Assembly (NCBI GenBank): GCA_002723085.1
Contig: PBNK01000003.1
Span: forward strand, 1-50,360
DNA from: Crocinitomicaceae bacterium
GTDB lineage: Bacteria; Bacteroidota; Bacteroidia; Flavobacteriales_D; Parvicellaceae
Reading direction: 5' to 3'
Length of the DNA stretch: 50,360 nt
Shown: positions 1 through 16,227 of the stretch, piece by piece
Layout of the letters: each line of letters opens with the position of its first letter
Position numbering within the stretch: the first letter of the stretch is position 1
Notes under the pieces: model-generated
Seen by the model: only the letters and a program-made list of their open reading frames with translations
The model's database searches: none
Told to the model about the DNA's origin: nothing
Made by a program: the position numbers and the translations under genes

Positions 1-1611
1 GAAAGAATATAAAGCTCTCTGGTATTACATCTTTCATGTATACCGTAGAGGTCATTAGTGCATCTTGTATTCGCTTAGCGTAGTTGATGCTGTCGGTAAT
101 TTCTTGATGTGATTCATTTAGTTTATCATGTGTTTCATTTAGCTTTTGGTGTTGACCTTCTATAACTACTTTTTGAGCTCTAGTCTTTCGTAATTGTACA
201 AATACAAACCCTAAAGACACTAGAACCAATCCTACTATGACAAGCAATCCTGTTCTTCTTTGTTTTTCGCTTTTTAGCTGTTCTTCCTTAGCTAGGTTTT
301 CTGCTTGTTGAATTAGAATTTCATCGGCATGCGCAATACTATCGGCTATAGCCTGTTTCTCGTATTCGTACTTAAATTCTTTTTGTATCATTGCTTCTTT
401 GTTTTCTATTCTAAGTATGCTATCACGCATTTCAATGTATAGCTCGTACATTTCAAGTGCTTGGTTGTTTTTTCCAAGCTTTTTATTGATTTCCCATAAA
501 TATTTAGAAGAATTTCGAATTGCTTCAACTCTACCTATTTCCTTTGCAATACTAAGTGCATTTGTACATTTTTCCAGCGCTTTAGTATAGTATCCCTGTA
601 AATAATAAATATATCCAAAGCTATTTAAAGATATAGAAATGCCATTTTTATCTCCTATTTCTTCTTTTATCTTTATGCTTTTATTGTAATATTCCAAGGC
701 TTTAACGTAATTACCTTGATTTTTATAAATATTCCCAATATTATTTATACAACTAGAAGTAATAAATTTATCCCCTAACTTCTCACTAATTTTTATACTT
801 CTAGAGTAATGTTTAATGGCTTTTCGTCATCGCCCTGATCAAAATAAATACTCCCTAGGTTAATTAAAGTTTTTGAAATGCCATCATATTGTTCTAATAA
901 CTCATATATTTCTAAACTTCTAGAATAATATTTAATGGCTTTATCGTAATTACCCAGATCATTATTGACTATTCCAATGGATGATAAAATGTCAGCAATA
1001 CCTTTTTTATTTCCAACTTCCTCAGCTATTTTTAAGCTCTTAATGTAATAGTCTAGGGCTTTAGCTAGGTCGCCTTTGTCATGATAAATCATTCCTATAT
1101 TAAGTAAAGTATTGCCAATAAATTTTTTATTTCCTATTTCTTCAGCTATTTTTAAGCCTCTAGTATAATATTCCATGGCTTTGGCGTCGTTACCCAAAAG
1201 ATTATAAACAGCACCTATATTATTTAAACAACCAGCGATTCTTCTTTTATTTCCATCTTCCTCAGCTATTATTAAACTTTTGGTATAATAGTCTATGGTT
1301 TTATCATAATCTTGTCTAATATAAAAAGACGTTCCTTGCGTATTTAGTGCATCTGCCATCCATTTCTTGTTGCTAACAGATTCAGCTAGTTTATATTGTA
1401 ACCCAGCAAAATAAAAAGCGCTATCTGGCTGAGAAAACAAATAACCATCCCAAGCTATGCTTTTCATTGCTTTAAGTCGATTGGTATCTGGTTGGGTTTT
1501 GTCGTTCCAAACACCCCATAATGAATCTAGGTTGACTTGAGCTTTGCTGCTGAATGAGATTAGCAGAAAAAGTAGAAAGAGATATTTTTGTAAAGTTTTG
1601 ATTAGTTGAAT
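1..1611 (-). pseudogene. TPR signalling protein with coiled coil, frameshifted and cut by the window edge
   Basis: The reading frame starts with a signal peptide (KTLQKYLFLLFLLISF then SSKAQ) and runs through about seven TPR units of 40 residues. Near base 821 one base is missing. The frame then continues in the -1 register through more TPRs, a membrane helix (GLLVIVGLVLVSLGFVFVQL), a coiled coil and the stretch NYAKRIQDALMTS, open to base 1. In Bacteroidota that last stretch usually leads into a SpoIIE/PP2C phosphatase or histidine kinase domain, so this is probably a membrane signal-transduction protein, but the output domain is outside the window. No ATG precedes the signal peptide in frame; the only upstream candidates are ATT/ATC codons near 1611-1600. 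The first in-frame ATG (1467) would lose the signal peptide. It may be a real pseudogene or a sequencing error. Confidence 0.72.
640..1340 (-). repeat. 120-bp tandem DNA repeats encoding TPR units
   Basis: Six successive copies of the repeat core (atgg or aagg followed by ct/tt) lie at 1295, 1175, 1055, 935, 816 and 696. The spacing is 120, 120, 120, 119 and 120 bases, i.e. 40 codons per TPR unit. The single 119-base spacing marks the frameshift. Such near-identical tandem units are prone to recombination and to misassembly. Confidence 0.8.
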
Positions 1612-1630
1612 ATACTAAATAGTATTCAAC
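1605..1630. repeat. Inverted repeat at the TPR gene start
   Basis: Arms GTTGAATA (1605-1612) and TATTCAAC (1623-1630) form an 8-bp stem with a 10-base loop, between the lipoprotein stop and the TPR signal-peptide codons. No clear T-run follows on the minus strand, so it is a poor terminator. It could be an operator or an RNA hairpin covering the start. Confidence 0.45.
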
Positions 1631-1652
1631 TTTAGATTAAAAATAAAATCAA

Positions 1653-11091: not shown

Positions 11092-11565
11092 TCAATTAAG
11101 TTTTTTGTACTGAGTATAAAATAAAAATATATACACCAAATGTATAATAGATGTTGTTATAGGAACAACAATTGTTGAATATTCATCTAATAAAAAGAAA
11201 GGAGACACAATATAGGATAACTGAAAAACTGAGTAAATGATAAACCCTTTTTTAAGCCTAAAGTTTATTAAGGCAACTCCCAATAAAGCCAACACATCAA
11301 TTATAGCCCTAACTAAATAAAATTTTACTAATTTTTGTCTAATAACATCATTAAACTCAAGCCCTTGGTTTTTCCAGTTTGATTTAAGATCCTCCATACT
11401 TTCATAGGCTTCTTGATTATTTTTCAAATCTTCTGTATGGTTAAAGAAAGCCCAATGAGACGCGTCATTACTAATACAGTAAATAAACCCTAATAAACTT
11501 AAAATGCATAGCAATTTTATAGGCCTATACAATTGACCATCTTTAGATTCACTATTTAACTTCAT
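11092..11565 (-). CDS. Small four-helix membrane protein, unknown function
   Basis: A 157-residue protein with predicted helices at about 17-31, 85-101, 109-125 and 131-150. A soluble loop of about 50 residues, rich in charged residues, sits between the first two. I do not recognise the family. Its start overlaps the end of the M61 peptidase gene by 14 bases, which suggests translational coupling and a linked role. Confidence 0.75.
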   Translation of the reverse strand: MKLNSESKDGQLYRPIKLLCILSLLGFIYCISNDASHWAFFNHTEDLKNNQEAYESMEDLKSNWKNQGLEFNDVIRQKLVKFYLVRAIIDVLALLGVALINFRLKKGFIIYSVFQLSYIVSPFFLLDEYSTIVVPITTSIIHLVYIFLFYTQYKKLN

Positions 11566-13207
11566 AGTCGTAATATCTATAATTATTTGGCTTTTCCAAG
11601 GTCAACCTTCTTAATTTTCCATCTCTTTCAAGAGATATAACTATTTCATCATTAATGAAATAACTTAACCAATTTTCAAAATTATTTGTCAATCTAAAAC
11701 CATTAACAGAATGTACAACATCATCTAAAACAATTCCTGACATATCCGCAGCTCCGCCATCTAAAACCCCTACAACTTTTGAAAAGCCATTTGAATTTAA
11801 CACTTTTAACCCATAGTTATGAGAAGAAAGAATTGGTTTTTTTTGACTCATCGACCAACCAAAACCTTTCATAGCAAGTTCTAAATAAGGTGTAAAATCA
11901 GCAGTTCCATAAATTAAATCATTAAAAATATCATCAAATAAAACTCCAGATATTTCCTCTAAAATAGTTTTATATTTTTCTTTATCATAAGATGTTACTT
12001 TTTGCTCATTTGAATACATTTTTCGCATTACATCATGAAGTGACTTTTTATTATTTGTTGCATTTCTTATTCTTGAATCACATATGAATGCTATTAATGC
12101 ACCTTCTACATAAATAGACACCTTTCTTCCTGGTATACCAGCAACATAACCATCTAACCAAGTATCAAAACTTGATGCTGCTACAGAATAATTTTTTCTT
12201 CCATCGTTATGATAATGTCTTTTAAGCAATTTCACTAACTCATTAAAATATTGGTGTTCTGAAAAAACACCCGATTCAAAAAGCATTCTGTCGCCCATAT
12301 ATGTTGTTACACCCTCAGCCACATAACCCAACTCATTATAATTTTCTTTAGAAAAATCATAAGGAGACATTTCTTCTGGCCTAATTCCCTTAATGTTCCA
12401 AACATGATAAAGTTCATGAGAAGACACCCCCAAAAGTTCAATATATAATTTACCAAAAACATCATAAGATGGTCCTAAAAGAATAACCGTTGATTCATGG
12501 TGTTCAACACCGTGATATGCTGAATGTGGTGTAATTTGAAATAGAAAGTAATAATCTTTAAAAGGGAAAGAACCAAAGCAATTAATTTGATATTCAATAA
12601 ATTTTTCAAAATCTGAAAACAATTTCTCCCATTTTGGCCTGATTTCACCCTGAAAACAAAAATGAAATTTAATATCTAAAACTTTTAAGGTTCTTTGTTG
12701 AAGGGATTCACTTGAAATTATTGGAGAATCTGCCAATTCATCAAAATTAATTGCATTGTATGAACCATCATCTTTTAATTTCAATGAAGTGACTGTTTTA
12801 TAAGACTTTGGAACATCTAAATAAACAATACAATTTTCATTATTGTTATTTGAATCATATATAAAACAATTTACAGGGTTTATATAAAGTTGGTGCTCAT
12901 TCAAAAGAGTAGACCCAGCATTTAAAGTATTCGCATAGTATTCATAATTAACAATGACATGATTTTCTTGATCTAAATTTTCTACTAGCCAACTGTCTTT
13001 TGATGTTTTATTAAAGTTTAAAATTTTGCCTTTTTCATCATAAACTTTAAAGTTTCTAATGTTTTTAGCAAAATCCCCTAACTCATATCGACCTGGTCGC
13101 CATGATGGCAATTGTAATTTTAAAAAAGAAGATTCAATGACATTAACTTTAACAGAAAATGAAATGAAATGTTTATGTGCGTCTGTTATTTTTAAACGAT
13201 ATTCCAT
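11552..13207 (-). CDS. M61 family metallopeptidase with PDZ domain
   Basis: A 551-residue protein. The N-terminal beta domain contains LQLPSWRPGRYELGDFAKN, typical of M61. The zinc site HELYHVWNIKGIRPEE provides two histidines and the catalytic glutamate; the third ligand is the glutamate in VAEGVTTYMGD. A PDZ domain occupies about the last 90 residues (NYGLKVLNSNGFSKVVGVLDGGAADMSG region). The family includes glycyl aminopeptidases. No signal peptide is visible. A -7 box lies 19 bases upstream, and the gene appears to head the minus-strand run down to yciH. Confidence 0.92.
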   Translation of the reverse strand: MEYRLKITDAHKHFISFSVKVNVIESSFLKLQLPSWRPGRYELGDFAKNIRNFKVYDEKGKILNFNKTSKDSWLVENLDQENHVIVNYEYYANTLNAGSTLLNEHQLYINPVNCFIYDSNNNNENCIVYLDVPKSYKTVTSLKLKDDGSYNAINFDELADSPIISSESLQQRTLKVLDIKFHFCFQGEIRPKWEKLFSDFEKFIEYQINCFGSFPFKDYYFLFQITPHSAYHGVEHHESTVILLGPSYDVFGKLYIELLGVSSHELYHVWNIKGIRPEEMSPYDFSKENYNELGYVAEGVTTYMGDRMLFESGVFSEHQYFNELVKLLKRHYHNDGRKNYSVAASSFDTWLDGYVAGIPGRKVSIYVEGALIAFICDSRIRNATNNKKSLHDVMRKMYSNEQKVTSYDKEKYKTILEEISGVLFDDIFNDLIYGTADFTPYLELAMKGFGWSMSQKKPILSSHNYGLKVLNSNGFSKVVGVLDGGAADMSGIVLDDVVHSVNGFRLTNNFENWLSYFINDEIVISLERDGKLRRLTLEKPNNYRYYDYEVK

Positions 13208-13286: not shown

Positions 13287-14189
13287 ATGAAAAAATATGA
13301 TGTTGTTATATTGACTGAATCTAGATATTTAAATCCAGAAGTTATTGACGATTATATTCAAAACGTTCTCACTGAAGACGGATTAATTTTAAAAGAACTA
13401 AAAAAACTTGGATTAAAAGCTACAAGAAAAGATTGGGATGATAAACACTTTAATTGGAGTGAAGCTAAAATATTATTAATTAGATCTACCTAGGACTATT
13501 TTCATAGGTTTAAAGAATTCAAAAAATGGATTGAAAAGGTAAAGTCGGATAGTTTGCTCATTAACACTTACGAACAAGTTAATTGGAATTTTGACAAACA
13601 CTACCTTAAAGATTTAGAAAAAGAAAACATCAATATTCCTTCATCAATTTTTATTAAAAAAGGATCTGATGTTTCTCTTAAAGAACACATGAAAAAAAAT
13701 AAATGGGATTGTATTGTAGTCAAGCCCACTATTTCAGGAGCTGGAAGATACACTTACAAAGTTGATAAAAATAATATTGAAAAAATAAACAATAAATATT
13801 TAGAATTAATTAAAGAAGAGGATTTCATTATTCAAGAATTTCAAAAAAATATCGTTTCAAAAGGGGAAGTTGCTGTAGTTCTAATTGATGGCGAATACAC
13901 ACATGCAATTTTAAAATTAGCTAAAAAAGGGGATTTTAGAGTTCAAGACGATTTTGGAGGAACAATTCATGATTATGAACCAAATCAAGAAATGATAGAA
14001 TTTGCTCAAAAATCCATTAAAAGCTTAAATCCAACTCCTGTATATGCAAGAGTTGATATTATTTGGGATAACGAAAATAAAATGGCCGTTTCTGAATTAG
14101 AATTAATAGAACCTGAACTTTGGTTTAGAAATAATCCTAGTTCAGCTGTTAAAATTGCAAAAGTTTTAAAAGAAAAAGTAGTCATTTGA
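13287..14189 (+). pseudogene. ATP-grasp ligase interrupted by an in-frame amber codon
   Basis: Two open stretches lie in the same frame, separated only by the TAG at 13491-13493 (codon 69). The joined protein is 300 codons. The break falls in LLIRST-stop-DYFHRF, and relatives with this ATP-grasp fold usually read RSTWDY here, so a TGG tryptophan codon appears to have become TAG. After it come ATP-grasp features: VVKPTISGAGRYTYKV, FIIQEF, the glycine/aspartate region VQDDFGGT, and ARVDIIWDN with SELELIEPELWF. The family is COG0189-like (glutathione synthetase/RimK type) carboxylate-amine ligases; substrate unknown. The second half stays free of stops and its codons look normal, so the loss is recent, or the codon is read through, or it is a base error. 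Confidence 0.85.
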
Positions 14190-14247: not shown

Positions 14248-15636
14248 ATGAATTACGATGTAATAGTTTTAGGAAGCGGACCTGGGGGTTATGTAACTGC
14301 CATAAGAGCTTCACAATTAGGTTTAAAAACAGCTGTGATAGAGAAAGAATCTTTAGGAGGCGTTTGTCTTAACTGGGGGTGTATCCCAACAAAAGCTCTT
14401 TTAAAAAGTGCTAATGTATATGACTACATTAATCATGCTGAAGATTACGGAATTCAAGTAAGTAATTTTAAAGCAGATTTTAATGCTGTTGTTAAAAGAA
14501 GTAGAGGGGTTGCAGAAAAAATGAGTGGTGGTGTTCAATTTTTGATGAAAAAAAATAAAATTGATGTTATAATGGGAACAGGAAAAGTAATTCCTGGAAA
14601 ACAAATTGAAGTGACTAATGATAAAGGAGAAGTAAATAATTACTCTGCTAAAAACATAATTATTGCAACTGGAGCAAAATCAAGACAACTTCCTAATTTA
14701 CCTCAAGACGGCAAAACAATTATAGGTTATAGAGACGCTATGGTTCTACCAAAGCTTCCAAAAAAAATGGTAGTTGTAGGTTCAGGTGCTATTGGAGTTG
14801 AATTTGCATATTTCTACAATGCAATGGGTGTTGAAGTTACAATAGTTGAATATTTACCAAATATTGTCCCTGTAGAAGATGAAGAAGTTTCAAAACAATT
14901 AGAAAGAACTTTTAAGAAAAGTGGAATTAAAATAATGACTAACTCATCTGTTGAAAGTGTTGAAAAACAAAATAAAGGTTGTAAAGTAAATGTTAAAACT
15001 AAAAAAGGCGAAGAAACAATTGACTGTGATATAGTGTTATCAGCAGTGGGTATAGAATCAAATATTAGCAATATTGGTCTAGAAGAAACAGGCATTGTTA
15101 CTGATAAAGGAAAAATTATTGTAAATGAATACTACGAAACAAACATTACTGGTTATTATGCAATTGGGGATGTTGTTCCTGGGCCAGCTTTAGCTCATGT
15201 TGCTTCAGCTGAGGGAATAACTTGTGTAGAAAAAATAGCTGGTCTTAACCCTGAGCCTATTGATTACGGTAATATTCCTGGATGTACATATTGCAGCCCT
15301 GAAGTTGCTTCAGTTGGTATGACAGAAAAAGCAGCAAAAGAAGCTGGACATGATATTAAAGTAGGTAAATTTCCTTTCTCTGCATCAGGTAAAGCCAGTG
15401 CTTCTGGTCACAATGATGGATTTGTAAAGTTAATTTTTGATTCTAAATATGGTGAACTACTTGGTGGCCATATGATAGGTGCTAATGTAACTGAAATGAT
15501 TGCGGAAATTGTTGCTCTCAAAAAGTTAGAAACAACTGGTCACGAATTAATTAAAACTGTACACCCTCATCCAACAATGAGTGAAGCAGTTATGGAGGCT
15601 GCTGCTGCTGCATACGATGAAGTAATTCACATGTAA
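14248..15636 (+). CDS. lpdA: Dihydrolipoyl dehydrogenase
   Basis: This is the E3 flavoprotein (462 residues) of pyruvate and 2-oxoacid dehydrogenase complexes; it reoxidises dihydrolipoamide with NAD. FAD-binding GSGPGG is at 9-14, the redox cysteines are in GGVCLNWGCIPTK (Cys40 and Cys45), the NAD-binding motif is VVGSGAIGVEFA, and the C-terminal catalytic base is in HPHPTMSEAVMEAA. It appears to be a single-gene unit; the next gene is convergent, 12 bases away. Confidence 0.95.
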   Translation: MNYDVIVLGSGPGGYVTAIRASQLGLKTAVIEKESLGGVCLNWGCIPTKALLKSANVYDYINHAEDYGIQVSNFKADFNAVVKRSRGVAEKMSGGVQFLMKKNKIDVIMGTGKVIPGKQIEVTNDKGEVNNYSAKNIIIATGAKSRQLPNLPQDGKTIIGYRDAMVLPKLPKKMVVVGSGAIGVEFAYFYNAMGVEVTIVEYLPNIVPVEDEEVSKQLERTFKKSGIKIMTNSSVESVEKQNKGCKVNVKTKKGEETIDCDIVLSAVGIESNISNIGLEETGIVTDKGKIIVNEYYETNITGYYAIGDVVPGPALAHVASAEGITCVEKIAGLNPEPIDYGNIPGCTYCSPEVASVGMTEKAAKEAGHDIKVGKFPFSASGKASASGHNDGFVKLIFDSKYGELLGGHMIGANVTEMIAEIVALKKLETTGHELIKTVHPHPTMSEAVMEAAAAAYDEVIHM

Positions 15637-15648
15637 AGAGAATAATTA

Positions 15649-16227
15649 TTATTTTTCAACTTGAATTAACTCAATCAATTCTGCATCAGTTTTATCAAAA
15701 ACATTTTCAAGATAAGTCTTTGAATTCTTTGAAAGTGGATGATTTGGATATAACTCAATTAGTTCTTCATAAGCTAGTCGAGCACCTTTTTTGTTACGTA
15801 GCTTATCCTCAATAATTCTAGCTATGTTGTGTAAATATTTTGGTGCATTACTTGACTTTGGAAAATTTCTTTGAGCTTTATGAAAATAAGTAATTGCGTC
15901 ATTATAATGCTCTGAAGCTTCAGCTCCAAGAGCTGCCCATTGATACAAACATTCTTTTAAACTATCTGAAATCACCAATCCTTTATCCTGAATTTTAAGA
16001 GATGATAATTTATATAACTCTCTTCCAAGTTTAATGTTTTGTAATTGTAATTTAGGATCAAATCCGTTATTAATAATTTGTTCCGCCATTAAATTCAAAG
16101 AATCAAAAGAATTCAAAACTTCCATTTCATTCGAGTTTTTATCATTTAATTCTGATTTATTTTGAGATTCCGTTTCGCATGAAGATAAAAACATACAGCC
16201 AATTATTAAAAAATATAAATATTTCAT
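15649..16227 (-). CDS. TPR-containing lipoprotein
   Basis: A 192-residue protein with a lipobox (CMFLSSC, Cys17) and helical pairs that look like TPRs (HYNDAITYFHKAQRNFPKS; AYEELIELYPNHPLSKNSK), similar to YbgF/BamD-type outer-membrane accessory proteins. Its role is unknown. The ATG overlaps the def stop codon by four bases (ATGA), so it is translated with def. Confidence 0.75.
   Translation of the reverse strand: MKYLYFLIIGCMFLSSCETESQNKSELNDKNSNEMEVLNSFDSLNLMAEQIINNGFDPKLQLQNIKLGRELYKLSSLKIQDKGLVISDSLKECLYQWAALGAEASEHYNDAITYFHKAQRNFPKSSNAPKYLHNIARIIEDKLRNKKGARLAYEELIELYPNHPLSKNSKTYLENVFDKTDAELIELIQVEK

Follow-up and report, generated by a model that had tools for sequence, protein, structure and literature searches.

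In-frame stop codons inside otherwise conserved genes are the closest described counterparts of the locus reported here. According to the parts of Belinky et al., 2021 (PMC7918605) drawn on here, such stops are found widely across bacteria and are mostly short-lived, which would make the case below an ordinary one. The window that we analyzed, a stretch of 50,360 nucleotides from a Crocinitomicaceae bacterium, carries a gene that resembles those described in these parts of the paper in having one stop, an otherwise conserved sequence, a dN/dS below 1 and no sign that the stop is old. The cases analyzed there, as far as the same parts go, were common to two or more genomes, whereas here the species is represented by one genome and the stop occurs in no aligned relative. 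We conclude that the locus is probably a very recent nonsense allele, that is, an inactivated and apparently non-essential ATP-grasp ligase gene. The locus looks like an ordinary loss of function, or a base error, and not like a new reading of the code; single nonsense mutations in dispensable genes are a common kind of event and already known.

The gene spans 300 codons at 13287–14189 of the forward strand (frame +3), and its sole break is a TAG at codon 69 (Table 1). Translation yields 68 residues, the TAG, 231 residues and a TGA, with no change of frame between the parts. Over its full length the gene aligns without gap or indel with an intact 300-residue protein of equal length from a genome of the same genus (G001). 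This agrees with an earlier reading of the DNA made from its letters alone (hereafter the sequence-only reading), which had placed both halves in one frame with the TAG at 13491–13493 as the only break. Past the internal TAG, the first possible restart codon is a TTG at 13554 (20 codons on) and the first ATG lies at 13689 (65 codons on).

Table 1. Coordinates of the interrupted gene, its internal stop and its neighbours in the window
Feature	Coordinates	Strand	Remarks
5' part of ATP-grasp gene (68 codons + TAG)	13287..13493	+	precedes ATP-grasp domain; aligns with residues 1–68 of the G001 homologue L003
In-frame TAG, codon 69	13491..13493	+	TGG in 33/33 aligned relatives
3' part of ATP-grasp gene (231 codons + TGA)	13494..14189	+	ATP-grasp domain intact; Pfam GSH-S_ATP and RimK
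Neighbour, M61 glycyl aminopeptidase family	11552..13207	-	adjoins gene in 14/33 relatives too
Neighbour, pyridine nucleotide-disulphide oxidoreductase	14248..15636	+	adjoins gene in 15/33 relatives too

Compared with Pfam, the 3' part exceeded the cut-offs of both GSH-S_ATP (PF02955; 33.6 bits, cut-off 23) and RimK (PF08443; 28.1 bits, cut-off 21), a likeness at the superfamily level only, and the 68-residue 5' part on its own matched no Pfam family. With X in place of the stop, the highest-scoring named family for the gene was the D-cycloserine synthetase DcsG (NF058666; 132.3 bits, E 1.8e-38), the match covering residues 33–298 of the protein and positions 21–297 of the 298 in the profile. 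We rejected membership of this family as the score is far below the equivalog cut-off of 360 bits. Only the structure of DcsG (PDB 6jil; E 1.1e-17) matched within an E limit of 0.001 in the PDB, and in this remote relative a tryptophan aligns at the position of the stop. Judged from these likenesses, the product would be an ATP-dependent ligase at the family level, and the gene probably encodes another ligase of DcsG's superfamily and not DcsG itself.

We aligned the gene with 33 relatives, comprising 29 loci from a search of 60 related genomes and four from a separate search; L032 (presumed to be the contig of L003 again), G058 (locus not given) and weak matches were left out. Codon 69 specifies tryptophan in all 33, always as TGG, so that none shares the stop, and the surrounding motif is mostly R-[ST]-T-W-[DN]-Y, the T before the W differing in a few relatives. 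The sequence-only reading had predicted a family tryptophan at the stop, within an RSTWDY motif, and had proposed a comparison with close relatives; the tryptophan was present in every aligned relative and in PDB 6jil, and the copy in G001 proved to be open and 83% identical.

Across the 60 relatives searched, matches at E 0.001 or better were found in 38 and strong matches (E below 1e-40) in 30, and none of these 30 contains an in-frame stop. No match with E below 1e-40 was found in 30 of the 60, several of which are incomplete genomes, and none of the four genomes of genus g2 has a strong match, two of them being 97% and 94% complete. The genome that carries the stop (G000; 2,431,853 bases in 46 contigs, 95.28% complete) has no other match. 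The gene family thus occurs in many members of this order with a patchy presence, and the gene appears to be dispensable because 30 of the 60 relatives, genus g2 (0/4) among them, lack a match at E below 1e-40.

Gene order around the open G001 copy matches that of the window, the two sequences running collinear across 6.7 kb at 80.7% identity. Both neighbours are kept in 14 of the 33 relatives, the oxidoreductase alone in one and neither in 18, counted within the locus DNA examined, in which some loci stop at a contig end. We presume the oxidoreductase to be dihydrolipoyl-dehydrogenase-like. Since the order of M61 peptidase, ATP-grasp gene and oxidoreductase recurs in 14 of 33 relatives, the window gene can be regarded as the ortholog of theirs.

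Relative to G001, dN/dS was 0.112 over the gene in full (0.109 before the stop and 0.113 after it), slightly above the values for the four neighbours with a finite estimate (0.024 to 0.107; one more neighbour had a saturated dS, and 15652–16227, of lower identity at 65.6%, was left out). Because dS is near 1, these ratios mostly reflect the time before the stop arose. The window departs from the relatives at two of the 74 columns with at least 90% agreement, namely at the stop and at I65; stop aside, 72 of 73 strongly conserved columns are kept, and the departure at I65 is common to G001. We saw no other damage in the gene, neither an indel nor a second stop. Together with the Pfam scores, the kept columns bear out the earlier description of the 3' part as an intact and undamaged ATP-grasp domain.

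A premature stop in a gene with intact orthologs, and little or no further decay, are the marks of a recent nonsense pseudogene, and both were found here. Speaking against a recent loss is that selection is not relaxed after the stop (0.113 versus 0.109 before it), so the mutation must be assumed to be very recent; likewise, a gene so well conserved elsewhere can only be a very young pseudogene, if it is one. We simulated neutral evolution by substitutions only (kappa 4) and asked how likely it is that the 72 matched columns stay unchanged and no new stop appears: the probability fell from 0.17 at 1% substitutions per site to 0.03 at 2% and 0.003 at 3%. Under this model the gene, if dead, would have died within about 2% divergence (substitutions per site). 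As a nonsense allele, the locus would have arisen by one substitution turning codon 69 into TAG; RF1 would terminate there, leaving a 68-residue fragment that lacks the ATP-grasp domain. As the first ATG is 65 codons past the stop, useful amounts of the 3' part would not be produced. We observe the single stop, the TGG of the aligned relatives, the otherwise conserved sequence, an RF1 gene and the patchy presence of the gene; a genuine base, efficient termination and inactive fragments are what we infer.

An unlikely alternative, though one that carries real weight, is that the TAG is absent from the living population or present only in part of it, owing to a consensus base error or a strain mixture in this draft assembly. 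The constraint data fit equally well a gene that is intact but for a single miscalled base, as strong constraint and retention of the conserved columns are what such a gene would display; a base from a minority strain in the consensus, or a gene that still functions, would fit them too. An apparent one-base indel in a TPR gene of the window may also be an assembly error. Against this, we compared 32 window genes with their G001 counterparts (some partial), after telling sense genes and antisense shadows apart by visual inspection, and only the ATP-grasp gene has a stop inside; one in 32 indicates that errors are not common. The apparent stops in four other rows of this comparison lie upstream of start codons. 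An occasional broken gene is also, in our judgement, ordinary biology.

The TPR gene lies at the contig end (window 1–1640, reverse strand) and runs in two frames, with an apparent one-base indel, inferred from the neighbouring repeat, at a run of A near 821–824. Its relative in G001 (L096) continues into a further domain, which we take to be a phosphatase-type output domain. Elsewhere, a 400 kb sample outside the window contained one clear in-frame TAA (L125:8281-8283, equivalent to G000:C13:88281-88283), which splits a large secreted protein with DUF7948 before the stop and PKD and a CHU_C type IX secretion signal after it. The underlying coding-score scan covered 450 kb, window included, and returned 84 rows that were judged by eye, most being taken as antisense shadows or neighbouring genes; it detects in-frame stops and not frameshifts, and weakly scoring genes can escape it. 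One candidate split gene, C2:150652, resolved by eye into two neighbouring genes. We also dropped the idea of a TAG-specific excess of internal stops, as the further clear case in the scan is a TAA. The TPR-gene indel and the TAA on C13 therefore indicate that this genome has isolated breaks and that these are not specific to TAG.

Functional readthrough, by which a near-cognate or suppressor tRNA would insert a residue at the TAG so that full-length enzyme is still made in small amounts and expression is reduced rather than lost, is improbable. It would explain why purifying selection in the 3' part shows no relaxation, and Belinky et al., 2021, in the parts drawn on here, argue that in-frame stops accompanied by a dN/dS below 1 occur widely among bacteria; those same parts call such stops mostly short-lived and assume the vast majority to be without functional recoding. 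With the nearest relative as distant as here (dS near 1), an intact 3' frame says little in favour of readthrough, because constraint that predates the stop dominates dN/dS. Conservation of the stop across relatives, by which readthrough is recognized, was not found either, TGG standing in all 33. Nor did the RNA downstream show anything unusual: for 121 nt from 13480 the folding z-score was +0.94, and 163 of 200 shuffles folded at least as well, in a test of structures other than pseudoknots.

Among 244 long ORFs in the 450 kb sample, TAA ends 175, TAG 47 and TGA 22. Both release-factor domains (PF00472 and PF03462) are present in two genes, one of which, over its full sequence, has an intact frame and carries the P-x-T and GGQ motifs of RF1. 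The second (L068) is taken as a putative RF2; the domain search gave it an open frame of 344 aa, whereas its ORF listing held no ORF of 300 aa or more. An RF00005 search with 150 of 264 candidates scored returned at least 30 matches, and ARAGORN called a tRNA in 29 of 30, none with a CUA anticodon, in a list that is incomplete (tRNA-Pro, for example, is absent from it). The tRNA-Trp among the loci listed has a CCA anticodon. A pattern for CUA-anticodon tRNAs with short variable loops hit 24 loci, against 39 in the reversed control, and none of the 24 is a CUA tRNA; ARAGORN found a tRNA in one of them, an Arg TCT tRNA with the pattern out of register. At L066:1501-1572 (reverse strand) there is a degenerate tRNA-like sequence (RF00005 30.0 bits, cut-off 29) with GGC by eye at the anticodon position and no ARAGORN call.

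A dedicated readthrough device or recoding is unlikely and has no support, because RF1 is present, TAG is used as a terminator, these incomplete tRNA searches yielded no CUA tRNA and no downstream structure was detected. The sequence-only reading had offered a very young pseudogene, readthrough or a base error; the first and last fit the evidence, and readthrough gained nothing positive in its favour. Only a slim chance attaches to a TAG fixed throughout the species, at which low, useful near-cognate readthrough would turn a nonsense codon at the invariant tryptophan into a throttle on the expression of an ATP-grasp ligase still under selection. Were a fixed and read-through amber codon shown by reads and peptides, Flavobacteriales would offer a clean natural example of leaky termination.

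We consider it very doubtful that the gene now works in two pieces, with the halves made separately (from a restart at the TTG at 13554 or the ATG at 13689) and acting jointly or alone. The 3' ORF does retain an ATP-grasp domain above the Pfam cut-offs, but no start codon lies close to the stop, a restart would drop the conserved residues that follow the tryptophan, and none of the 30 strong matches among the relatives is a copy split by a stop. Reassignment of TAG to a residue throughout the genome, for which the internal TAG itself is the one argument, has a negligible chance of being correct and was rejected on RF1 and on the 47 of 244 long ORFs that end in TAG, as the sequence-only reading had anticipated from normal TAG stops; besides, the one further internal stop that is clear in the sample is a TAA.

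Returning to the nonsense allele, we considered deamination of 5-methylcytosine at CCWGG, a Dcm-type site, as the cause of the TAG. This candidate was dropped, since the genome had no match to the DNA methylase family PF00145 (0 of 1), against positive results in 10 of 14 controls. A TGG at codon 69 in the window's own context would make a CCWGG site; in G001, where ACA precedes the TGG, no such site exists. The internal stop itself lies within a CCTAGG palindrome at 13489–13494.
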